A DNA stretch of 34,647 nucleotides from contig JADHVP010000024.1 in assembly GCA_016783945.1 (NCBI GenBank), forward strand, positions 1 through 34,647, written 5' to 3'. The notes below the pieces were generated by a model, which saw only the letters and a program-made list of their open reading frames with translations, had not been told where the DNA came from and did not search any database. Made by a program: the position numbers and the translations under genes. Origin of the DNA: Ignavibacteria bacterium. GTDB lineage: Bacteria; Bacteroidota; Ignavibacteria; Tepidaquicellales; Tepidaquicellaceae. Positions 19,688-31,675 of this stretch are shown piece by piece (position 1 is the stretch's first letter; the number at the start of each line of letters is the position of its first letter).

Positions 19688-20962
19688 TTATTTCAATAGC
19701 ATCATCTTTTTCACTTCAAAAAACTCTTCCGTAACCAATTTATAAAAGTAAACTCCGCTTGAATATTTATCTGCATACCACTTTGTTTCATAAATCCCGG
19801 GATATAATCGCTCATTTACTAATACATCTATCTCTCTCCCAAGATTATCATACACAATCAATCTCACCTGTGACGACTTTGGCAAATCAAACCTAATGTT
19901 TGTCATCGGATTAAACGGGTTTGGATAATTTTGCTCAAGGGAATATCCATCAGGAATCACATTACCAATCGGCTTTATTCCGACAGGTTCACCACCAGTT
20001 GTAGTTTTCAAAATTACTCCTACATACGTTGGAGGACTTGCGATGTAATATCCACCTGGTATATAACCGGTGCTGTCATTTACAAACTGAATGCTTCCTA
20101 AAAAATATGAATTTCCACTCGATTGTGAATACCAGTTCTCCCCACCGTTCGTAGTTTTCTGTATAACATTGCCACCTCCTGAATAATAATTTCCTATTGC
20201 CCAGCCGGTATTCTGATTAACGAATGTAACTTCTTTTAATGTGAATGATTGCAGAAACTGTTTGTTTACCCAATCCTCCCCACCGTTTGTTGTCTTCATA
20301 ATTCTTCCTTCCTGTCCGACTGTCCAACCTGTGTTATCATCAATAAAGAATATGGAGAACAATTTTACCGTTGTGCCCGAAACTTGGCTGATCCAGTTTT
20401 CACCGCCATTTGTAGATTTTATTATGCGGGCTTGATCTCCAACAACCCAGCCGGTGTTTTGATTTACAAAGTAAATCGATGAGAAACTAAATATACTGCT
20501 TGAATATACGGTATACCAGTTCTCTCCCGAATTCGTTGTCTTTATAATTGTCAAATCCTCCCCGGTAGCCCAGCCTGTGTTTGAATTGACAAACTGCACT
20601 GATGCCAACCATTTATTCGGATGACCACTTTGTATAAACCAGTTGTCACCTCCGTTTGTTGTTTTAATAATCTTATCTCCCTGCTCACCAACCGCCCAGC
20701 CTGTGTTTTCATTGACAAACCAGATTGAATGCAGGAATGTTGTAACTCCTGTCGTTTGCGGAATCCAATTGTTTCCGCCGTCAGTAGTTTTTACCATTAC
20801 ACCCTGGTAACCGCCAACCCAGCCAGTGTTTTCATTAAGAAAATATACGGATGCAAAATATCTTGCCGAATCGTTATACGAAACAAACCATCCGCTTTGC
20901 GGATAAGCTTTCATAACTAACAATGATGATATGATGAACGAAAGAAGTAATACTTTTTTCAT
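19688..20962 (-). CDS. Secreted seven-repeat beta-propeller protein with T9SS type A sorting domain
   Basis: The 424 residues begin with a signal peptide (MKKVLLLSFIISSLLVMKAYP). Seven tandem repeats of about 45 residues follow, each with an 'NTGW..G' turn and then a 'KTTNGGxNW' Asp-box, the pattern of YCF48/photosystem II assembly factor-like propellers; seven copies suggest a closed seven-bladed propeller. The last about 85 residues are a type A sorting domain, with EQNYPNPFNPMTNIRFDLP, a VYDNLGREI turn, SGVYFYKL and a basic KKMMLLK end. Such domains direct export through the type IX system and anchoring or release at the cell surface. It resembles the gene at 29.8-31.0 kb. Ligand or partner is unknown. 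The PSII name describes the repeat only; nothing here indicates photosynthesis. Confidence 0.85.
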   Translation of the reverse strand: MKKVLLLSFIISSLLVMKAYPQSGWFVSYNDSARYFASVYFLNENTGWVGGYQGVMVKTTDGGNNWIPQTTGVTTFLHSIWFVNENTGWAVGEQGDKIIKTTNGGDNWFIQSGHPNKWLASVQFVNSNTGWATGEDLTIIKTTNSGENWYTVYSSSIFSFSSIYFVNQNTGWVVGDQARIIKSTNGGENWISQVSGTTVKLFSIFFIDDNTGWTVGQEGRIMKTTNGGEDWVNKQFLQSFTLKEVTFVNQNTGWAIGNYYSGGGNVIQKTTNGGENWYSQSSGNSYFLGSIQFVNDSTGYIPGGYYIASPPTYVGVILKTTTGGEPVGIKPIGNVIPDGYSLEQNYPNPFNPMTNIRFDLPKSSQVRLIVYDNLGREIDVLVNERLYPGIYETKWYADKYSSGVYFYKLVTEEFFEVKKMMLLK

Positions 20963-21182: not shown

Positions 21183-24179
21183 TTATTTAATAAGTGTCAT
21201 CCTTTTTGTTTCCGAAAAATCGCCCGCAGTTATTCTGTAAAAATATATTCCGCTTGCAAGTTTGCTTCCGTCTAATTCTGCTTCGTAGTAACCCTCCTTT
21301 TTAATCTCATTATTTATTAATCTTATTACTTCCCTTCCCGTTATATCAAAAATTATTAAATTTACTTTGCTTTCGTAAGGTATTGCGAAACTGATTCTTG
21401 TTCTAGGATTAAACGGGTTGGGATAGTTCTGAGAAAGACTGAATTCAGCAGGTATTCCAACTTCAACCTGTCCGCTTAGATTATGATATTTTATGTTTCC
21501 GTTATAATCAATTTGTTTGAGTCTGTATTGATATTTTCCTGTTTGTAAGTTTCTATCTACAAAAGAATAGTTAGATGGAGTAGTAACCGTTCCCTTCCCT
21601 TGTATAAAACCAATCTTTATAAAGTTACCAGTAACTATTTTTCTTTCAATATCAAATCCGTAATTATTTTGCTCAGATGCAGTAACCCAGTCTATTTTAA
21701 CATTTCGTCCAATCACAGTTGATATAAAAGACGAAAGCACAACCGGTAAAGCTGCTTCTATATCGGTTTCCCATAATCCACGCCCGAATGTTCCGGCTCT
21801 TAGTTTATCAGTAACCCCCCCATAAAATATTTCTAACTCTGTAACTACAACATTCGGTAAACCGGCATTGTAAGATGTCCAGACATCAGTTCCATCTTTT
21901 ACGTAAACACCGACATCTGTTCCGACAAATAAAACATTTCTATCTGTAGCGCGTTTATTATAAACTATACACATTACAGGAAGATTAGGCAGACCTGTAG
22001 AAATATTAGTCCAGCTTGTACCTCCATTAGTTGATTCATAAACTTTTAAACCGTTCGTATACCCGCCAAAAGTTATCCAGAGAGTGTTAGGGTCAGTATC
22101 TTTTACAGCAATGTAAGTCAAATAATCAGACGTTACAGGTAGCGTAATAGAAGTCCAGTTTGTTGCACCGCCATTAGTAGTCTTCCACATATTAGTTTGA
22201 TCTGCAGCGTAAAGCACATTTGTATTGGATGGGGCAATTGCAAGCGAACGCAATTTAGCACTTGAACTTAACACTTGAGATGCACTTGTCCAGCTATTAC
22301 CTCTGTTTACAGTTTTCCAGACTCTATCATATCCCGCAAAAAGAATGGCGGCATCAGTTGGGTCCATTATGTAAGGTGTAACCCAGAAGCCCGTCGGCTG
22401 ACCACCGGGAATATTAGCGCTAATTGTGGTTCTTGATGTAGTAGTAAATCCATTAGTGTTTCTGTAAATTGTACCATTAACATAAGTTGCATACATATAA
22501 GAAGTAGCATTATTGAAATCTATTATACATTCCATCCCATCACCGCCTGTTGCATCAAACCACGTATTCAATGCACCGCGATATTTTTTTGAGCCGTTAT
22601 CTTGCAAGCCGGTTAATACTACGTCGGCATCGGTCTGCGAAACTCCAATCCTGTATATTTGACTAATAACAATTCCATTTGTCAAATCCGTCCAGGTAGT
22701 TCCTCCGTTTATTGTTTTATATATTCCGCCGTCGTTTCCCTCAAAAAGTGTTGTACCATTTTGAAAAGCGAAAACATGCTTATCGGCATGTGCAACAGGT
22801 GCACCAACAAAATTATAAGTTCCGGAACTAGTCCACATGTTATTAATAGTCCATGCAACACCTCCATTAATGGATTTCCAGGTATTAATGCCACCGAGAA
22901 AAACCGTATTTGCGTCTGTAGGTGAGGCGGCAATACATAAGTCATATGTCCCTTGTCCGACGTTAGCGCCGGAACCATCACTATAATAATATAACATACT
23001 TTTAGCAGGGCTATCCACCCGTGAAAAACTTGCTCCGCTATTTGTTGATTTATAAACACCATTTAATCCACCGGAAATGTTTGAGCTAAGCATATAGACT
23101 ACAGTTGCATCATCAGGAGTTACAGCTAATTCATTACGATATCCACCCGATGCAACTATAAAATACGACCAGTTTTCGCCATTGTTAGTAGAACGATTAA
23201 TATATGAGGAACCGTATCCAACACTTGATGCACAAATAATATTGGGATCGGCAGGGTTAAATTCCATATCAATCCATTGATTAATTGTTTTAAGAGTCCA
23301 GTTTGTTCCTCCGTTTGTTGTTTTATAAATACCATCTGAAGTTGAAGCTAAAAGAATAGAGTTATCAGTAGGATGAATTAAAAGTTTATAAACCAATTTA
23401 CCATCACTTGTCGAATATGAAAGTTCTGTTAAATTCCACGTTGCTCCGCCGTCTGTTGATTTCAATACTCCAATGCTGTTGTTATCATTATACTGCCCAC
23501 CTCCAAGAGACCACATACTCCCGCCGTCGCGGTCCCCTGTTGCTATGTATATAGTGTTTGATGTTGCGTAATCACTCGACACAATAATATCACTAACACC
23601 AAGAACGGATAGATTATCATTTAGTATCGTCCAGTTTGTTCCGCCATTCGTCGTTTTCCATATACCACCCGATGGACTGCCAACCCAAACCGTGTTATTA
23701 TCTGTAGGATGGAACGCAACACAGTTTATTCTCCCCAGTCCTGCATAACCGCCACTCGACGTATTTGTCCCGAGGTTAACCCAGTTTTCGGAATAATCGG
23801 ATTCGTCTGTAAAATTGTTCGGCTTCTTTCTATAATTGTCATATTCGATGATAGAATTAGTCCTGGGAAATTCTCCCGTTGTCTGATTTACCCTTTGTTC
23901 CCAGTAATACTCCCAGCGTTTATATATTTTCCAGTTAGGGACTTTGGTTTCTTCACCGTTCTTTATTGTATAACCATCTTTTACGTTTTGTGATGACCAA
24001 TATTCGTTCATCGCTCTTTGTATTTCAAAAAAATTGTTTGTACTTTTGAGATGATATGGATTTATGTCAGATAGTTGTATGATTTGTGCATTTAAAGAAT
24101 TGCTAAAAACTAAAAAAGAAATCATAATGAATAATTTCTTTATAGTATAAATCATAAGATTTGTCTTCTTTTTTTTCAT
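21183..24179 (-). CDS. Large secreted Asp-box (BNR/sortilin-like) repeat protein with T9SS type A sorting domain
   Basis: The 998-residue protein has a signal peptide; the first Met gives a long basic leader, and a start nine codons in (MIYTIKKLFIM) is equally possible. After a propeptide-like region (about 35-140) come many Asp-box turns such as GGIWKTTNGGTNW, ADQTNMWKTTNGG and YESTNGGTSW, spaced as in ten-bladed sortilin/VPS10-type or sialidase-like propellers, to about residue 830. An immunoglobulin-like linker follows (LPVVLSSFISTVIG, then the EQNNYGFDIER segment), common in type IX cargo, and finally the sorting domain (SQNYPNPFNPRTRISFAIP, SGIYFYRI, KRMTLIK). No sialidase catalytic residues are evident. 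It is probably a surface or released adhesin or glycan-binding protein; that role is inferred. Confidence 0.83.
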   Translation of the reverse strand: MKKKKTNLMIYTIKKLFIMISFLVFSNSLNAQIIQLSDINPYHLKSTNNFFEIQRAMNEYWSSQNVKDGYTIKNGEETKVPNWKIYKRWEYYWEQRVNQTTGEFPRTNSIIEYDNYRKKPNNFTDESDYSENWVNLGTNTSSGGYAGLGRINCVAFHPTDNNTVWVGSPSGGIWKTTNGGTNWTILNDNLSVLGVSDIIVSSDYATSNTIYIATGDRDGGSMWSLGGGQYNDNNSIGVLKSTDGGATWNLTELSYSTSDGKLVYKLLIHPTDNSILLASTSDGIYKTTNGGTNWTLKTINQWIDMEFNPADPNIICASSVGYGSSYINRSTNNGENWSYFIVASGGYRNELAVTPDDATVVYMLSSNISGGLNGVYKSTNSGASFSRVDSPAKSMLYYYSDGSGANVGQGTYDLCIAASPTDANTVFLGGINTWKSINGGVAWTINNMWTSSGTYNFVGAPVAHADKHVFAFQNGTTLFEGNDGGIYKTINGGTTWTDLTNGIVISQIYRIGVSQTDADVVLTGLQDNGSKKYRGALNTWFDATGGDGMECIIDFNNATSYMYATYVNGTIYRNTNGFTTTSRTTISANIPGGQPTGFWVTPYIMDPTDAAILFAGYDRVWKTVNRGNSWTSASQVLSSSAKLRSLAIAPSNTNVLYAADQTNMWKTTNGGATNWTSITLPVTSDYLTYIAVKDTDPNTLWITFGGYTNGLKVYESTNGGTSWTNISTGLPNLPVMCIVYNKRATDRNVLFVGTDVGVYVKDGTDVWTSYNAGLPNVVVTELEIFYGGVTDKLRAGTFGRGLWETDIEAALPVVLSSFISTVIGRNVKIDWVTASEQNNYGFDIERKIVTGNFIKIGFIQGKGTVTTPSNYSFVDRNLQTGKYQYRLKQIDYNGNIKYHNLSGQVEVGIPAEFSLSQNYPNPFNPRTRISFAIPYESKVNLIIFDITGREVIRLINNEIKKEGYYEAELDGSKLASGIYFYRITAGDFSETKRMTLIK

Positions 24180-24328: not shown

Positions 24329-25011
24329 TTAAACCTCCGGCTTCTCATCCCCGTAACCTATCCTGTACTGCGTCTTTGTCTCAACGTCCTTTTCAAACTC
24401 CTTCAAAACCATATCATATTCATAGTTCACCTTAAACTCCGCAAGCACTGCCTCCACCGCCTGCTTCGGGTCGAAGCCCGTCCCGTTGCAGTAATGCATA
24501 AAGACCTGGCACCCGACTCCTACTCTTGAGTCAATTATCCTCTGCTCTTCCCTGTCAAAACTGAAGTCCACATGATTTTCATCTCTCGGTGTTATTATAT
24601 CATCCCCCTTGCTTACCATATCACCCGTTACTGTTAAAAGTCTCGCTTCCCATTTGTGCAAAAAAAAAAGCTAAATGGTATACCCTCACCGATACGGTAA
24701 AGCCACTTCTGAATTTTTTTATCCGCTTGCCATTCACCTTCGGCGTATGTTAACTCGCTGTCTGCAATTTTAATGAAGCTGAACTCTACTGAGAAAAGCA
24801 GAAGCTCTATCCATTTCCTGTTATGCTCTGCAACCCCTATCAATTCTCCCCACATCGTGTTATCTTTCGAGTCTGCAACCTCTGGCGGAATACTGATCAT
24901 AAGATTCTTACCCTTTGCACTCTCTACCGTTTCGAAAACGCCTTTATACCTTTCCATAAGAGACGGAAACTTCTTATGCTCCTTTGGTATTAAATAATTT
25001 GTCTTTTGCAT
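24329..25011 (-). pseudogene. Frameshifted hypothetical gene of the 'NYLIPK' type
   Basis: Two overlapping minus-strand frames join into one protein of about 225 residues. The first part starts at 25011 (MQKTNYLIPKEHKKF) and reads to a run of ten T residues (complement of 24660-24669), where it slips out of frame and ends about ten codons later at 24634. Adding one base to the run continues directly into the second frame (HKWEARLLTVTGDMV to YGDEKPEV at 24329). The joined protein is mostly helical with conserved-looking tryptophans, and I do not recognise it. Its N-terminus matches the broken gene at 29.3-29.7 kb. It lies immediately downstream of the three-gene cassette. A real mutation, a sequencing error in the homopolymer, or slippage during expression would all look the same here. 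Confidence 0.6.
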
Positions 25012-25030
25012 TTGTACATAAAATTTTTGT

Positions 25031-25077
25031 GTGGTTACGTCTGTAGTGCTGCCTGCCCGCCAAAGTTTTTTGGCGGG
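25031..25077. repeat. Dispersed repeat copy 2 with adjoining hairpin
   Basis: Bases 25031-25058 repeat 21123-21150 with two substitutions. Overlapping its end is a perfect 9-base inverted repeat (CCCGCCAAA at 25056-25064, TTTGGCGGG at 25069-25077) with a 4-base loop. The unit lies directly upstream of the broken gene that starts at 25011 on the minus strand. The remaining 150 bases up to the AAA ATPase gene contain a short plus-strand open frame ending at 25216, with no recognisable product or start signal, which I do not call. Confidence 0.55.
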
Positions 25078-25229
25078 TCGTAACCTGTTTCTGCTTCCCG
25101 TGCACGGTACAAACCTGTGGCGTGTTATGCCTAACATTGTAAAAGATAATTCACTTTTCAAAAGATTCTACGGGCAGGAAGAACATACAGGTAGTCTAGG
25201 AGTAGCCTTTTTGTAAAATACAATTTTTG

Positions 25230-26483
25230 CTATCTCTCAATTAACTTTTCACCATCTTTAATATTTTCTTTAACCTTAATTTCTAGTTCAGCTGCTGTAT
25301 AATAATCTTCTGGTAAGGTAACAAGGGCGAAATGGTCTTTAATTTTCTTTTTAAAAATAGGATCTTTTTTACTATAAATTTTTGTTTCTGAATTCTTTTT
25401 TTCTAATTTGTAAATTAATCCTAATGAAGGTTTTGAAAAAACTGATGAATGTGATGATAAAATAATTTGCTGTAGTGAATCGTTTGAAAGTAAATTATTC
25501 AAAGCACGAAATGCATAATATTGCATATCTGGAGAAAGGTTTTGCTCTAATTCCTCTATGCAAACTATTTTACTTTTAGTATAAATAATAGCGGAAATAA
25601 TAAATAAAATTTGCAAAACACCGGAGCCAAGATATTTAATAGGTAATCTTTCATTATTCTCTTTAACCATTATTTCTAATTCTTCATCCTCTTTTGAGAA
25701 TGATATTTTTCCAAAATTGAAACGATCACTATTAAATAAGTCAGATATTTTTTCAAACATTTCGTGATTATCTACACTTAAATACAAAGAATACAAAAAC
25801 TCTTTAAAATTTCTTGAATTTATTTCAGTTAGTTTATCATTTACTTTTGCTTCTTCAAATTTAATATTTAACATATCTCTTGCACTTGGAATTAAAAACA
25901 CACAATCATTAAACGGTTCTATCAACTTTTCAAAAATCGGTACCATTATATTTGCTGACAATTTCTTAGGATCTAAAGTTGGGAAATAGTGAATTTCATC
26001 TGAATACGAATAAATAATCACTTTATTTAAAATTACTCGCTCTAACTTTTGCAAACCAGAATCATCTTTTTTATTATTACGATTTATTTTACCTGAAAAT
26101 TCTATATTATAAGTATTATCATTTAATGCTTTTTTAAGAATTCTTTTAGCATAAGTTTTATCTAATAATAATTCATTTTTATTAATTTCCATTACAACGT
26201 TATACTTGATTTCATTACAAGAATTATTATAAAAGTCATGCTTGATATTTTCAACAATCCCGCTATAAAAATTTTTAACTTCAACTTTAGGTGGTGGTGT
26301 ACCTAGTAAACCTTTATCTTCGGTAAATTCTTTTTTCCTTTTAAAAATCAGATTTAAGGCATTCAAAATATTAGATTTTCCAGCATTATTTAACCCGTAA
26401 AAAATTGTAGTAGTATCAAAATCATCAATCTTAATATCATTGAGACTTCTATAATTATGTATTGAAAACTTTTTAATTTTCAT
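25230..26483 (-). CDS. AAA/SMC-like ATPase of the RecF/OLD type without TOPRIM; third gene of putative defence cassette
   Basis: The 417-residue protein has the layout of RecF/OLD-type ABC ATPases: an opening FSIHNYRSLNDIKI, Walker A GLNNAGKSN (30-38), a variable middle region (about 60-270), an ABC-signature-like YLGSGVLQ (284-291), Walker B IVCIEELEQNLSP (306-318) with the catalytic glutamate, and an H-switch SSHSSVF (343-349). No TOPRIM nuclease domain follows; the C-terminus (360-417) is a short lysine-rich tail. It starts 11 bases after the GHKL ATPase gene and is clearly co-transcribed with it and with the methyltransferase. Such ATPases commonly act as sensors or motors in phage-defence systems. 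The gene is visibly more AT-rich than the metabolic genes to the left, suggesting transfer. Biochemical role not established. Confidence 0.85.
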   Translation of the reverse strand: MKIKKFSIHNYRSLNDIKIDDFDTTTIFYGLNNAGKSNILNALNLIFKRKKEFTEDKGLLGTPPPKVEVKNFYSGIVENIKHDFYNNSCNEIKYNVVMEINKNELLLDKTYAKRILKKALNDNTYNIEFSGKINRNNKKDDSGLQKLERVILNKVIIYSYSDEIHYFPTLDPKKLSANIMVPIFEKLIEPFNDCVFLIPSARDMLNIKFEEAKVNDKLTEINSRNFKEFLYSLYLSVDNHEMFEKISDLFNSDRFNFGKISFSKEDEELEIMVKENNERLPIKYLGSGVLQILFIISAIIYTKSKIVCIEELEQNLSPDMQYYAFRALNNLLSNDSLQQIILSSHSSVFSKPSLGLIYKLEKKNSETKIYSKKDPIFKKKIKDHFALVTLPEDYYTAAELEIKVKENIKDGEKLIER

Positions 26484-26494
26484 AATTTATTTTA

Positions 26495-28084
26495 TTAAGT
26501 TTTATAATCTTCAAATTCATTTAAAAAATTATTGATTATCTTACTATACATATCTTCAGATGTTTTTGAAGAGGTTTTGGATATGAGTAATAACAAATGA
26601 ATTTTCTTGAATAAATTCCCATACTGTCTGGATTTGAATAATGGATAATCTTCGTTTATTTCGATTTTATTATCGTTCGTGAGAATAACTGGGGCTTTAT
26701 TTTTTTTAATATCCCACTTTTTATAAACAACATTAAATTTCCTTTCTAATATTATTTCTTCATCATTTTCAAAATGTTCTGAATTAATTATAGTTATTGT
26801 TTTTTTTGATTTATCAATTATAATAGGAGGAAAAATATCCTCTCCTGATTCTTTCACAATTTTTTTAAAAGAATCACTAGCTTCTTTTATTTTAAATCCT
26901 TTTTCTTTTAATTTTGTTAATTTTGATTCAATAATGTCTTTCTTTGATTTCACATCAGAGACGGTTTTATATGAAGATAAAGCATTTTCTATTCCTTTTT
27001 CTGCTTCAGCAATAGTTTCAATTAAGTTCGCTTGCTGACGTAATAAAATACTTACTGCTTCATATAAATCTTTTATCGTTGATTCATTCAGTAAAGAATC
27101 ACGATTGATACTAAGAAATTTCTTAATATTGCTAGATAGCATTATTTCTCCATTCAACCAATGAAGTCTTGAAAATCCTCTATCTCTTTTTAATCCGAAA
27201 TCTGTTCTTTCACCTATCCCAACATTATTAATTCTTAATTTTATACCTCTCAATTCAAGTGGATGAATAGAAACATAATTTGTAGATATTAATATTTTAT
27301 AATTGATATCTTCAACTTTTCCCGCAACATTTAATAAAATATTACTACAAGGTTCGTGCCTATATACAGGTTTTTTATTCAAAAAAACTTTTATCCCAAT
27401 CGGTTCTTCATATTTTAGGATATTGTTAAATTTAGAATCCGGTTTATAGGAAATCGGTAAATCTTCTTCTAACTCCCATTCAAATTTATCAAATGGATCA
27501 TAGTTTCTTATAGTAGCTCGCTTTTTAGTGTCTTCTTTAGAAAAATACTGTTTTAAATAATAAGTGGGATTAATGAGCCTTAACAGAGTATAGTGTTGTG
27601 TTTTTATTGAATCATTATAAGTGATCTCAACAGGAAATCCTATATCTTGAATATCTATCGCATCATCATCGATGAAATATTGATTTGTTGGAATTGTTGC
27701 TTTTAAAACTTCATTGGAATTTTCAACCGTAGATATAATTTCTAATATTTCGCAAAAGGGGAATATAGAAAGAAACCCAATTCCAAATTGACCTATTCGT
27801 CTTCTTTTGAATTTTCGAGAAAAATTTATATCTCTTTTTTGTCCTGCGATTGTACAAAAATATTTAAACTCCTCATGAGACATTCCATTTCCATCGTCCT
27901 CAATAATAATTCTTTTTAAATTTTTATCAATACTAATTTTAACTGAAAGAGCATCTGCGTCGTATGCATTACTGACCATTTCTCTAATAGCATTTGCAAA
28001 ATTTTTGATATAAGTTGATTTACTCAATAATGAGATGATTTTTTTATCAACTTTTAAATACTCAATATGTTGCTCGGTTTTCAT
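26495..28084 (-). CDS. GHKL (Hsp90/MORC-like) ATPase; second gene of putative defence cassette
   Basis: The N-terminal about 200 residues carry the Bergerat ATP-binding fold: N-box REMVSNAYDADA (34-45, with Glu35 and Asn39), G1 box IEDDGNGMS (61-69), and G2 box GQFGIGFLS (98-106). A second-domain-like region (about 230-340) and a coiled-coil-prone lysine/glutamate-rich stretch (about 345-400) follow; the C-terminal part (about 415-529) has no motif I can name. There is no histidine-kinase phospho-acceptor domain and no MutL endonuclease motif. The layout resembles prokaryotic MORC/Hsp90-like ATPases, which have been reported in restriction-modification neighbourhoods. It begins 6 bases after the methyltransferase stop and ends 11 bases before the AAA gene, so translation of all three is likely coupled. 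Strongly AT-rich. Confidence 0.85.
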   Translation of the reverse strand: MKTEQHIEYLKVDKKIISLLSKSTYIKNFANAIREMVSNAYDADALSVKISIDKNLKRIIIEDDGNGMSHEEFKYFCTIAGQKRDINFSRKFKRRRIGQFGIGFLSIFPFCEILEIISTVENSNEVLKATIPTNQYFIDDDAIDIQDIGFPVEITYNDSIKTQHYTLLRLINPTYYLKQYFSKEDTKKRATIRNYDPFDKFEWELEEDLPISYKPDSKFNNILKYEEPIGIKVFLNKKPVYRHEPCSNILLNVAGKVEDINYKILISTNYVSIHPLELRGIKLRINNVGIGERTDFGLKRDRGFSRLHWLNGEIMLSSNIKKFLSINRDSLLNESTIKDLYEAVSILLRQQANLIETIAEAEKGIENALSSYKTVSDVKSKKDIIESKLTKLKEKGFKIKEASDSFKKIVKESGEDIFPPIIIDKSKKTITIINSEHFENDEEIILERKFNVVYKKWDIKKNKAPVILTNDNKIEINEDYPLFKSRQYGNLFKKIHLLLLISKTSSKTSEDMYSKIINNFLNEFEDYKT

Positions 28085-28090
28085 TTTAAA

Positions 28091-29191
28091 TTAATAACCT
28101 ATAATTAAAACTTCACGATTATTTTTTGCATTACCATTTTGCTTATTTAATGCATAGTTATATTCAATGGATTTAGTATATACTTTTCTTTTTATCTTTT
28201 TTAGTTTTTTTACTATTGTTTCAATAGAAGGAACCCCACCCTTTTTATAAGATAATACAATAATGCTTTTTTTGAACATATCGAATATGTTTTCAAAACT
28301 ATTTTTAATGTTGTTAAAATTGAAATCATCTTCTATGTAAAAATTCTTAAATCTCAAATTAATTGTATTGTAATCAATTAATTTATTCCAATCTAAATAA
28401 TTAGATATGCCCTCAAGAAAATGATAACATTTTAAATAGTCACTTGTTTCATTCGAACTGTTTTTTCTTATGTAAGGAGGATCTAAATAAACTAATTCGA
28501 AGCCATAAGGATCAATATTAAAGATAGATTGATTAGTTGAATAACAGTTTTTCTCATTATTGATAATCAAAGAATTTAATTCGTTAATAAAACAGAGGAA
28601 ACTTTCTTTAAAATCTTTCTCCCAAGTCTTTTTATTGCCAAAATTTCTATGGATATCCTTATTTCTTAAATATAGATTTTTCCTGTGGAATAAATTAAAC
28701 GGGCGTTTCTGTAAAGATGATTGAAATAATGCGTTAAAAGCAATTGCTTTTTTATATTTTAATACATTAGTATCATAGGTATTCAAAGAACAAATATTAT
28801 TTGTTATGAGGTCTATAAATTTATTTTCTTTTTTTGAGTAATAGATATTTTTAAAATTGTCTTCAGTAAACTTTGAATAGACAATCTCATTATGTTTGTT
28901 TACTAGGTATAATAAATCTGATTCATTAATTTTAACAGCAGGGTTTTCAATTAAAGATAAACCAATTAAATAATTAAATTTAAGAATATCGTTGTAAGTT
29001 ACACTTTTATTCATTTTTTTAAATAAATAACTAACCACACCAGTTCCTCCAAATCCATCCAAACATGTTTCGAATTTCAAGTCTTTTACTCCTTCATAAA
29101 TCCATGCAATAATTTTTCGTTTACTTCCTTGAAATCTTGTTGAAGGGAATTTTGTTAAAAAAGCATTATTTTGTGTTTTATTTGAAATCAT
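28091..29191 (-). CDS. Dam-type (D12 class) adenine-N6 DNA methyltransferase; first gene of putative defence cassette
   Basis: The 366-residue protein would transfer a methyl group from S-adenosylmethionine to adenine in DNA. Motif order is that of alpha-class enzymes: motif X-like FQGSKRKII (20-28), motif I DGFGGTG (45-51) for cofactor binding, then catalytic motif IV DPPY (240-243), followed by a C-terminal GGVPSIETI segment. A large middle insert (about 90-225) would hold target recognition. The recognition sequence cannot be predicted. It leads the three-gene unit, with its start at 29191 and an AT-rich leader upstream. No restriction endonuclease is recognisable beside it, so it is either an orphan methylase or the self-marking component of a defence system. 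Base composition is very low in GC compared with genes at 1-12 kb. Confidence 0.88.
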   Translation of the reverse strand: MISNKTQNNAFLTKFPSTRFQGSKRKIIAWIYEGVKDLKFETCLDGFGGTGVVSYLFKKMNKSVTYNDILKFNYLIGLSLIENPAVKINESDLLYLVNKHNEIVYSKFTEDNFKNIYYSKKENKFIDLITNNICSLNTYDTNVLKYKKAIAFNALFQSSLQKRPFNLFHRKNLYLRNKDIHRNFGNKKTWEKDFKESFLCFINELNSLIINNEKNCYSTNQSIFNIDPYGFELVYLDPPYIRKNSSNETSDYLKCYHFLEGISNYLDWNKLIDYNTINLRFKNFYIEDDFNFNNIKNSFENIFDMFKKSIIVLSYKKGGVPSIETIVKKLKKIKRKVYTKSIEYNYALNKQNGNAKNNREVLIIGY

Positions 29192-29306: not shown

Positions 29307-29707
29307 CTAATCCCCAAACTCATCCTCTATTCGCTTAACTATATCAGGAAATTCATGTTTCATATCTTCATAAATTACTCTTGCTTCTTCATTGCCTTCC
29401 TCAGCAAGTTTCTTCCAATGAAGAAATAATTGAAAAGATTTGCTCTCCAACCTTACATCAATAAAGTCCATTATAATTTTCATATAATTCCGTAGCTTTT
29501 TAAATATGTTCATAAATTCCACCATCTCCATAGTGTATTGCCTCAATACGTCTTGAGTTTTCATCTGTGCATATTCTTTGGGAATCTTCTCACTTACTTT
29601 TTTACATAAATCAGCTATCATTTCTTTTTCATCAGGCTGGAATGATGTTTCATCAAGTTTTCAAAATCCGGATCTGTCTTCGGTATTAAATAATTTTCTT
29701 TTGTCAT
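29307..29707 (-). pseudogene. Second frameshifted hypothetical gene with 'NYLIPK' start
   Basis: An ATG at 29707 opens MTKENYLIPKTDPDFEN, close in both protein and DNA to the start of the broken gene at 25011. This frame stops after about 29 codons. A second frame, open from just upstream and running to 29307, reads LDETSFQPDEKEMIADL and continues for about 115 residues of charged, helical protein (VLRQYTMEMVEFMNIFKKL, then an acidic C-terminus). One extra A in the short A-run of the Asp-Phe-Glu-Asn codons would join them into about 133 residues. After the first about 17 residues it shares little with the other copy. It lies upstream of the methyltransferase, so the two broken genes bracket the cassette. 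Function unknown. Confidence 0.55.
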
Positions 29708-29768: not shown

Positions 29769-31034
29769 TCATTTTAATAATAACATTTTCTTAACCGCAA
29801 CAAAGTTTTCCGTTTCTCCGTAGGAGTCCTTTACGACTATACTGTAGAAATAAACACCGCTTACATTATGCGTCCCGTCCCAATCAACGGTATAGCTTCC
29901 TGCATTCAAATTCTCATTCACAAGAACGGCTACCTCTTTTCCGAGTATATCATAAATTGTCAGCTTAACGTTCGAAGCCTTTGGAATATCAAATATAATA
30001 GTAGTAGTTGGATTAAAAGGGTTTGGGTAGTTTTGCTTAAGTAAATATTCAGTTGGGATTTCTGTATTTACTTTTTTAAAGGAAGTTACTCCCCCCGTCG
30101 TAGTATGTAATATTGTACCATACGAACCTGCTGCCCAACCGTATAATGTAGTAGCAAAGAATACTGAGTTTAAATTATTGGTTATACTACTCACCTGTAA
30201 TTTCCAGGTTAATCCCCCGTCTGTGGTTTGCAATATTTTACCACCGTCTCCAACTACCCATCCTTCATTAGTATTTTTAAAATCAACAGACGAGAGTTTA
30301 GAATTCGTACCGCTGTTTTGAAACGCCCAGTTAAGTCCCCCATTCGTCGATTTTATAATCGTACCGGTATCCCCAACAGCCCAACCTTGATGCATATCAG
30401 GGAAACTAACTCCATACAGGTTTTTATTTATTGCACAAGGAATTAATGTCCAGTTTGCGCCAGCATTTATTGTTTTTAATATAATACTTAATTGCATACC
30501 ACCTCCTACTGCGTATCCAGTAAACGAAGTACCCGAATAAGGAAAGAACACTGAATATAATGTGCCAGGCATGGTTTGAACCTGCACTTCCCAGTTATTT
30601 CCACCGTCTGTTGTTCGCATCCTTAGTCGTGAATCTCCAACAATGTATCCTCTATTAATATCCGTGAACATAACTGAATACAAATCAAAAGTAACACCAC
30701 TTGTTAACGCAAACCAATTGACACCACTGTTTGTTGTCTTTTTAACAGTACCTCCCTCTCCGACAATCCATCCGGTATTCAAATCAATGAAAAACACCGA
30801 ATGCAAGTCCCCTGTTGCCCCTGCGTTTTGTTCAACCCAGTTTGCCCCTCCATCTGCTGTGTGAAGAACGGTATTGTTATCACCAACTGCCCAACCAACA
30901 TTAAGACATGTAAAATATATCGAGTTCAGATCATTATTCATGCCACTGTTTTGCGTATACCAACCTGATTGTGCAAGAAGGTATTTACTATTCAACAATA
31001 TTAGTACAATTAAAATATTTTTTAAAGCTTTCAT
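29769..31034 (-). CDS. Second secreted seven-repeat beta-propeller protein with T9SS type A sorting domain
   Basis: I start this at 31034 (MKALKNILIVLILL, a clear signal peptide ending near LLAQ); a longer frame to 31064 adds ten residues that come from a duplicated piece of the polymerase gene. Seven repeats of about 43 residues follow, each with a 'GW.VG' turn and an Asp-box such as TTDGGANW, giving a seven-bladed YCF48-like propeller as in the gene at 19.7 kb. The C-terminus is a type A sorting domain (KQNYPNPFNPTTTIIFDIP, IYDILGKEV, SGVYFYSI, KKMLLLK). The promoter and leader region are now made of the left copy of the 61-bp duplication plus the transposase element, so expression may have been altered by that insertion. 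Confidence 0.85.
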   Translation of the reverse strand: MKALKNILIVLILLNSKYLLAQSGWYTQNSGMNNDLNSIYFTCLNVGWAVGDNNTVLHTADGGANWVEQNAGATGDLHSVFFIDLNTGWIVGEGGTVKKTTNSGVNWFALTSGVTFDLYSVMFTDINRGYIVGDSRLRMRTTDGGNNWEVQVQTMPGTLYSVFFPYSGTSFTGYAVGGGMQLSIILKTINAGANWTLIPCAINKNLYGVSFPDMHQGWAVGDTGTIIKSTNGGLNWAFQNSGTNSKLSSVDFKNTNEGWVVGDGGKILQTTDGGLTWKLQVSSITNNLNSVFFATTLYGWAAGSYGTILHTTTGGVTSFKKVNTEIPTEYLLKQNYPNPFNPTTTIIFDIPKASNVKLTIYDILGKEVAVLVNENLNAGSYTVDWDGTHNVSGVYFYSIVVKDSYGETENFVAVKKMLLLK

Positions 31035-31084
31035 AATTTTATTTTCGTCAAAAGTTCTTACCAAATTTTATTATATTAAAATTA
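31024..31084. repeat. 61-bp direct repeat, left copy (derived from polymerase IV gene 3' end)
   Basis: These 61 bases match 31757-31817 in the same orientation with about seven differences. On the minus strand this copy still encodes IIKFGKNF, the end of DNA polymerase IV, but a substitution turns the next Arg codon into a stop. It also holds the start codon of the downstream surface-protein gene. The transposase element lies exactly between the two copies. Confidence 0.85.
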
Positions 31085-31141: not shown

Positions 31142-31675
31142 TCAAAGGATCCTGTCTATTTTAATTATCGAATGGTTATCAATAATATAATTTCTTGCTG
31201 ACGAGTATAACCAATATTCCGGATGCGTAACAAATCCACGTTTTACCGGATTATAATGAATATACTCAATTTTTTGTTTAAGCATTTTCTCATTCTGTAT
31301 TTGATCTGGATGAAATCCTTCCTGCCAGATTTGGAAATCACTATCTGTCTTATATTTTTTCTTGAAATAAGCTAATTGATTAAGCAACCATTCTTTATTA
31401 TCTTTCTTTAATAAATTAATGATTTGTTTCGCAGAGTGCCTTTTTATAGATTGAATAACTTTAGATAATTCGGGTGCTTTTGCAATTAAATGAAAATGAT
31501 TATCTAAAATAACATATGCATATAATTCGAGGTCTTTATTTGTCTGGCAATATTTAAGTGATTCTATGATAGCTAAAAAATATTCTGTATTTATGAAAAT
31601 AGGTATCCATTCAATTATTGTATTGGTAATGAAATAGATTTTTTCCTTATCAATAATTTTGTAGCGTGTTCTCAT
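31142..31675 (-). CDS. REP-associated tyrosine transposase (Y1/HUH, IS200-like superfamily)
   Basis: The 177-residue protein is a single-domain HUH endonuclease that nicks single-stranded DNA near hairpins. It shows an opening strand pair (KIYFITNTI), the HUH motif His60-Phe61-His62 in YVILDNHFHLIAK, a central helix (VIQSIKRHSAKQIINLL), FQIWQEGFHPDQI, the catalytic-tyrosine helix KIEYIHYNPVKRGFV (Tyr138) and the closing WLYSSARNY. The YIHxNPV and WxYSSxRxY signatures are characteristic of the RAYT/Y1_Tnp group rather than classical IS200 TnpA. All key residues are present, so it may be active. It is bounded by mirrored hairpins and by a 61-bp direct repeat, and it separates the polymerase IV gene from a surface-protein gene that apparently once abutted it. 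Confidence 0.9.
   Translation of the reverse strand: MRTRYKIIDKEKIYFITNTIIEWIPIFINTEYFLAIIESLKYCQTNKDLELYAYVILDNHFHLIAKAPELSKVIQSIKRHSAKQIINLLKKDNKEWLLNQLAYFKKKYKTDSDFQIWQEGFHPDQIQNEKMLKQKIEYIHYNPVKRGFVTHPEYWLYSSARNYIIDNHSIIKIDRIL

Follow-up and report, generated by a model that had tools for sequence, protein, structure and literature searches.

What is a DNA adenine methyltransferase of the restriction-modification (R-M) type doing beside two ATPase genes, in a tightly packed cassette that holds no recognisable endonuclease? The question is raised by a locus in a 34,647-nucleotide stretch of an Ignavibacteria bacterium genome (GenBank assembly GCA_016783945.1, contig JADHVP010000024.1, positions 1 to 34,647 of the forward strand), the whole of which is referred to here as the window. 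Three minus-strand open reading frames (ORFs), separated by gaps of 6 and 11 bases, make up the cassette and are designated M, G and A in their order:

28091 to 29191, minus strand: M, a D12-class N6-adenine DNA methyltransferase of 366 residues (Pfam MethyltransfD12, 1.7e-12).
26495 to 28084, minus strand: G, a GHKL (Bergerat-fold) ATPase of 529 residues, MutL/Hsp90/MORC-like, with a transducer and a C-terminal alpha/beta region (Pfam HATPase_c_3, 4.9e-19).
25230 to 26483, minus strand: A, a compact ABC ATPase head of the OLD/RecF/Rad50 type, 417 residues (Pfam AAA_15, 5.7e-29, also AAA_21).

The ORF coordinates, lengths and gaps given in an initial annotation of this DNA were confirmed in the window, as were the AT-richness of the trio (25.0% GC, against 35.5% in the remaining window, where the lowest equal-length stretch has 31.6%) and the lack of a TOPRIM domain in A, which terminates after its ATPase domain and for which no TOPRIM was found by Pfam, in the structural model or among the neighbours. 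The catalytic DPPY motif of M, previously placed at residues 240-243, lies at 237-240, a trivial slip. Judging from the sequences of the three proteins and their relatives, we propose that the trio is a laterally mobile, R-M-like defence cassette, possibly without a DNA cutter of its own, and we put the probability of this reading at roughly 55%.

The strongest clue, missed in the initial annotation, comes from the relatives of M. This protein carries motif I as DGFGGTG and matches the PADLOC profile MTase_II PDLC03261 (6e-47); a PDB sequence search with it gave no match. An M-seeded scan of GTDB genomes returned 40 loci, 8 of which hold G and A beside the methylase, and 12 of the 32 non-trio loci have a member of the EcoRV-type endonuclease family adjacent to M or one gene off (two members assigned by Pfam, E 4e-72 and 3e-107, and the remaining members through BLAST clustering). 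Plasmid-borne relatives of M adjoin AlwI-family endonucleases. No cognate endonuclease gene was found in the window or at the other trio loci, and nothing in the trio matches PF09233 or another nuclease model. Because kin methylases are paired with EcoRV or AlwI endonucleases at this position, the ATPase pair sits in the gene slot of the restriction enzyme, and M is borne out as a member of an R-M methylase family, which it shares with the EcoRV- and AlwI-linked methylases. Residues 150-195 of M presumably match, by position, the DNA-reading hairpin of Dam, and over this stretch the trio methylases are 70% identical to the EcoRV-linked ones (65% once the seven residues of the search pattern are excluded), as against 42% overall. 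Given this shared, Dam-hairpin-like stretch, the target of M is probably GATC- or GATATC-like.

Elsewhere in the M family, a methylase is followed, directly or after one short gene, by a conserved three-gene run at L054 (7643-10900), L058 (7615-10872) and L144 (Rhizobium plasmid NZ_CP050093, 6056-9341). The run, 30-47% identical from locus to locus, encodes an unassigned protein of about 235 residues, a GHMP/beta-RFAP-synthase-like protein and a Ham1-NTPase/AAA fusion, and at L054 an MmeI-type R-M enzyme is encoded immediately upstream. It is possibly another undescribed methylase-linked system.

Does the trio recur as a unit? After duplicate removal it was found at ten non-redundant loci (the window, L003, L051, L052, L053, L055, L056, L059, L061 and L073), always in the order M-G-A and with gaps of -23 to +34 nucleotides, and a gene order kept in nine genomes besides this one is more than chance would give. 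The carriers belong to the Bacteroidota, Kryptoniota, Chloroflexota and Thermodesulfobacteriota, and include the cultured Pedobacter alluvionis DSM 19624 (Bacteroidota). A G-seeded search of 297 genomes of the phylum returned one full-length homologue (49% identity, G260), preceded by M and followed by A. With a two-row G profile, four full-length matches were obtained among 391 genomes of the class, the window included, and all four have M and A. Seeding with A in the class gave five matches, four of them in these same complete trios; the fifth (G379:C79 57-1172, L151) is an A-family gene at a contig end, either in a broken assembly or as a lone remnant, and neither M nor G was found elsewhere in that assembly. 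About 1% of the genomes of the class carry the trio, which is AT-richer than its flanks at all ten loci. Since the flanking genes are unlike one another between genomes and mostly housekeeping, with nothing but M, G and A conserved, the unit is limited to three genes, and it appears to travel as a fixed, laterally mobile unit between very distant bacteria. Searches of genome contigs and viral contigs with the single G sequence found no kin, and profiles of two to nine sequences matched distant GHKL or ABC domains only, and no trio, in the viral contigs. On plasmids no relative of A was found and G was matched by its GHKL domain only; in phages, the G-related match was a single ParaMORC3 GHKL domain.

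Within this unit the two ATPases do stay together, as had been proposed: G and A co-occur in the trio loci with the M-G-A order kept. Over the ten loci their distance matrices are strongly correlated (r=0.86, Mantel P=0.0002), as against 0.28 for M-G and 0.22 for M-A, and mean identity is 51% for M, 37% for G and 29% for A. The ATPase pair behaves in this respect like a putative complex, and M like an exchangeable marker. A divergent full-length relative of G (profile E 4e-88) was also seen in ANME-related archaea (L083 2904-7029 and L078 1-3314), in a four-gene operon that runs from the G relative through proteins of 205 and 263 residues, of unassigned family, to an M-family methylase; the 263-residue protein has an RCALEH (RX4H) motif that may hint at HEPN.

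It is reasonable to postulate how such a cassette would operate. M, by its enzyme class, would methylate adenine in short sites and so mark self DNA, and G and A would form one functional unit that replaces the restriction endonuclease. As a dimer of ABC ATPase heads, A would engage or sense DNA, and G, as a MutL/MORC-like, ATP-driven dimeric clamp, would close on DNA that is unmarked. The captured DNA might then be locked or looped, and thereby kept from replication or transcription, or it might be handed to a nuclease encoded elsewhere, an outcome considered because the trio shows no nuclease of its own. The logic would resemble that of Dam as methylase, MutL as GHKL protein and MutS as ABC ATPase. 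The gene identities, the recurrence, the slot shared with endonucleases and the co-evolution of G with A are directly observed; from there we infer the defence function, the G-A complex, the recognition of unmarked DNA and an outcome that needs no nuclease of the trio's own. In its most specific form, a minimal three-gene restriction system with no nuclease of its own, in which G and A read the missing methyl mark and foreign DNA is immobilised, looped or compacted by a MutS-MutL-Dam-like mechanism or by MORC-like silencing, the proposal is tentative and less likely than not.

Several observations weigh against a mobile defence cassette of this kind. Eight of the ten trio loci are among those found via M, which biases the sample towards complete trios. 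Housekeeping genes (DNA ligase, carboxyltransferase, FUSC transporter) make up most of the neighbours at the trio loci that were sampled, and no defence island surrounds them. Trio members cluster in the methylase tree (5 changes, against 9.0 in shuffles) and form no single clade; because the tree intermixes trio, EcoRV and other neighbourhoods, the link between M and the ATPase pair has arisen or been lost on more than one occasion. Last, the AlphaFold2 model of G is of moderate confidence (predicted local distance difference test, pLDDT, 74.6), and residues 395-529 could harbour a divergent nuclease fold.

This last point bears on the explanation that competes best, namely that a divergent catalytic site lies hidden in the C-terminal alpha/beta region of G or in A, so that the G-A complex would be an ATP-dependent restriction endonuclease. 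Restriction-enzyme folds do occur at the C-terminus of some GHKL proteins (paraMORC3, PMC2292703; VcSduA, PMC12137116), G matches the N-terminus of the BbrUII/HgiDII restriction enzymes at 79 bits, and N477, Y480, K494 and H496 in the C-terminal region of G are conserved or nearly so. The ten G sequences share the GHKL residues E35, N39, D63xG and G98..G103, and the model is matched by Hsp90/TRAP1 and MORC2 in Foldseek; invariance is confined to the ATPase and transducer parts, apart from N477, Y480 and F483 further on. Past position 330, the acidic residues kept in at least nine of the ten sequences are E342, E356 and D383, all in helices, and across 384-529 no acidic column is kept in nine of ten; in the L061 protein about 40 residues of the C-terminal region are missing altogether. 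The suggestion in the initial annotation that this unassigned C-terminal part is the effector finds no support, there being no acidic residue after 383 kept in nine of ten and no nuclease fold or motif. Matches of a PD-(D/E)xK regular expression in the G C-terminus were scattered and non-aligned, and column conservation was used instead. The model of A (pLDDT 80.6) shows a compact ABC head with no long coiled coil, matched in Foldseek by Rad50, SMC, OLD, PtuA and GajA; its invariant residues are those of Walker A (whose lysine is K36 in the window protein), the signature, Walker B, the D-loop and the His switch, with a few others including N153, R202, K227 and E270, the last being the only invariant acidic residue outside the ATPase motifs. 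No nuclease domain was found in the trio by Pfam, PADLOC, NCBIfam, PDB sequence search or Foldseek. The pattern of conservation in G and A argues against a hidden nuclease, which we regard as possible but doubtful.

It is also conceivable that G and A form a self-standing abortive-infection or anti-plasmid module of the PARIS, Septu or SMC-like kind, with M as an orphan add-on that shields against unrelated R-M systems. The strong G-A co-evolution and its weakness with M, the fluid methylase neighbourhoods, and the action of OLD-like ATPases as sensors in PARIS and further defence systems all fit such a module. However, every whole G-A pair found has M immediately upstream, and the divergent GHKL relative in ANME archaea also shares its operon with an M-family methylase, which makes an independent module rather unlikely. 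A role in methyl-directed DNA repair or chromosome maintenance, with no part in defence, would suit enzyme classes equal to those of methyl-directed mismatch repair and the suggestion that some non-R-M GHKL proteins serve repair (PMC2292703), but is very improbable because the trio is rare (about 1% of the class genomes), patchy across phyla, AT-rich at ten of ten loci and variably inserted, as mobile defence genes rather than housekeeping repair genes would be.

In the window, two features that flank the cassette lie outside the system:

24329 to 25161, minus strand: downstream flank and cassette edge, a frame-shifted copy of a 227-residue gene of unassigned function, whose intact version is on contig C5 of this genome (G000:C5).
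29307 to 29707, minus strand: upstream flank, a 5' remnant of the gene just before the 227-residue one on C5, then a 104-residue orphan ORF.

The downstream copy is 91.5% identical to the C5 gene over 774 nucleotides with one gap, and the upstream remnant (window 29644-29707) is 86% identical over 64 nucleotides to positions 599-662 of L095 (C5). The two decayed genes said to bracket the unit are thus present as a frame-shifted copy and a short remnant, though decay of the former is less certain, as its frameshift may stem from a misread T-run. The 104-residue ORF (29307-29621) matched no Pfam family and has no paralogue in this genome. On C5 (L095 604-2184) the genes are tandem paralogues of 226-227 residues with no assigned family, and because both flanks match these adjacent genes, the cassette seems to lie within a disturbed copy of the two-gene array. 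Some 2 kb further upstream there is an IS200-like (Y1) transposase gene (31142-31675, minus strand), which adjoins a Y-family DNA polymerase gene, and secreted BNR/YCF48-type repeat proteins with C-terminal sorting tails are encoded on both sides (19688-20962, 21183-24179 and 29769-31064, minus strand).

In 2008 a part in restriction, played through the movement of DNA, was predicted for the MORC-like ATPases of prokaryotes, and little of this prediction has been tested so far. The trio offers a natural comparison between related methylases that in some genomes stand beside a plain endonuclease (EcoRV, AlwI) and in others beside a pair of GHKL and ABC ATPases. If restriction by the pair needs no cut, the cassette would serve as a very small model of cleavage-free exclusion, a matter still unsettled for BREX, and of the way in which eukaryotic MORC proteins silence DNA; the cultured carrier P. 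alluvionis DSM 19624 makes the cassette testable.

How, then, does the trio compare with known systems? No named system was matched in PADLOC, NCBIfam or the literature: neither PADLOC nor NCBIfam has a model for the G-A pair, and no description of the M-G-A trio was found in the open-licence papers searched. The individual parts have precedents. The occurrence of GHKL proteins in R-M operons was described in 2008 (Iyer, Abhiman and Aravind, PMC2292703), in a work that proposed that they loop DNA and drew a parallel to MutL and methyl marks; the GHKL-nuclease Shedu (VcSduA, PMC12137116), HEPN-paraMORC fusions (PMC3710099) and the use of OLD-type ATPases by defence systems (PMC10568477, PMC12839542) are known as well. 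With MORC and paraMORC1-5 (PMC2292703) the trio shares an N-terminal GHKL domain with transducer, a DNA methylase neighbour and lateral mobility, whereas it has no helicase, nuclease or TIR, and the fixed partner of G is an OLD-like ABC ATPase, not reported for paraMORC1-5 in the text of that paper. The GhXhhpXXRhl motif of the S5-like domain, by which MORC is defined there, is missing in all ten G proteins, as is the ExxxH of the C-terminal part of the S5 domain of paraMORC2; G does have the N-terminal GHKL domain, S5-like transducer and R-M context of a paraMORC in the broad sense. For the C-terminal restriction-enzyme fold of paraMORC3 and VcSduA, G gave no Pfam match and no conserved acidic column after 383, in a part of the model that is moderately confident. 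Membership of Shedu appears doubtful. The BbrUII/HgiDII model (NF050001) matches some 100 N-terminal residues of G only, at 79 bits against a curated full-length cut-off of 550.

Gabija, PARIS and Septu or retron PtuAB share with A an ABC ATPase head of the same fold, but the trio lacks TOPRIM, AriB, the HNH protein PtuB and a helicase, and the partners of A are a GHKL ATPase and a methylase. OLD nucleases and Gabija are set aside by the missing C-terminal TOPRIM of A and the missing GajB helicase; for PARIS, the AriA profile matches the ATPase part of A, but no TOPRIM gene recurs beside the trio; for PtuAB, the PtuA model reaches 22 bits against a cut-off of 500, with no recurrent HNH neighbour. 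MADS (MAD3, 27 bits against 420) has no counterpart in a cassette of three genes only, nor does MZA (MzaB, 18 bits against 850), whose Z1, DUF and AIPR partners are not among the neighbours. BREX would share methylase-marked self, ATPases and exclusion without a classical restriction endonuclease, features that the trio is predicted to have, but the three-gene trio has no PglX-type methylase, and PglZ and BrxC are missing from the cassette and the sampled neighbours. Methyl-directed mismatch repair (Dam, MutL, MutS) likewise combines a D12-class adenine methylase, a GHKL clamp and an ABC ATPase, but A is no MutS relative by domain match, there is no MutH, and a mobile AT-rich cassette stands in contrast to a core gene set. 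The EcoRV and AlwI type II systems share with the trio the D12-family methylase, its putative target-recognition stretch and the gene slot, and differ in having an endonuclease in place of the two ATPase genes. The trio is apparently an undescribed variant of the GHKL-containing R-M-like systems.

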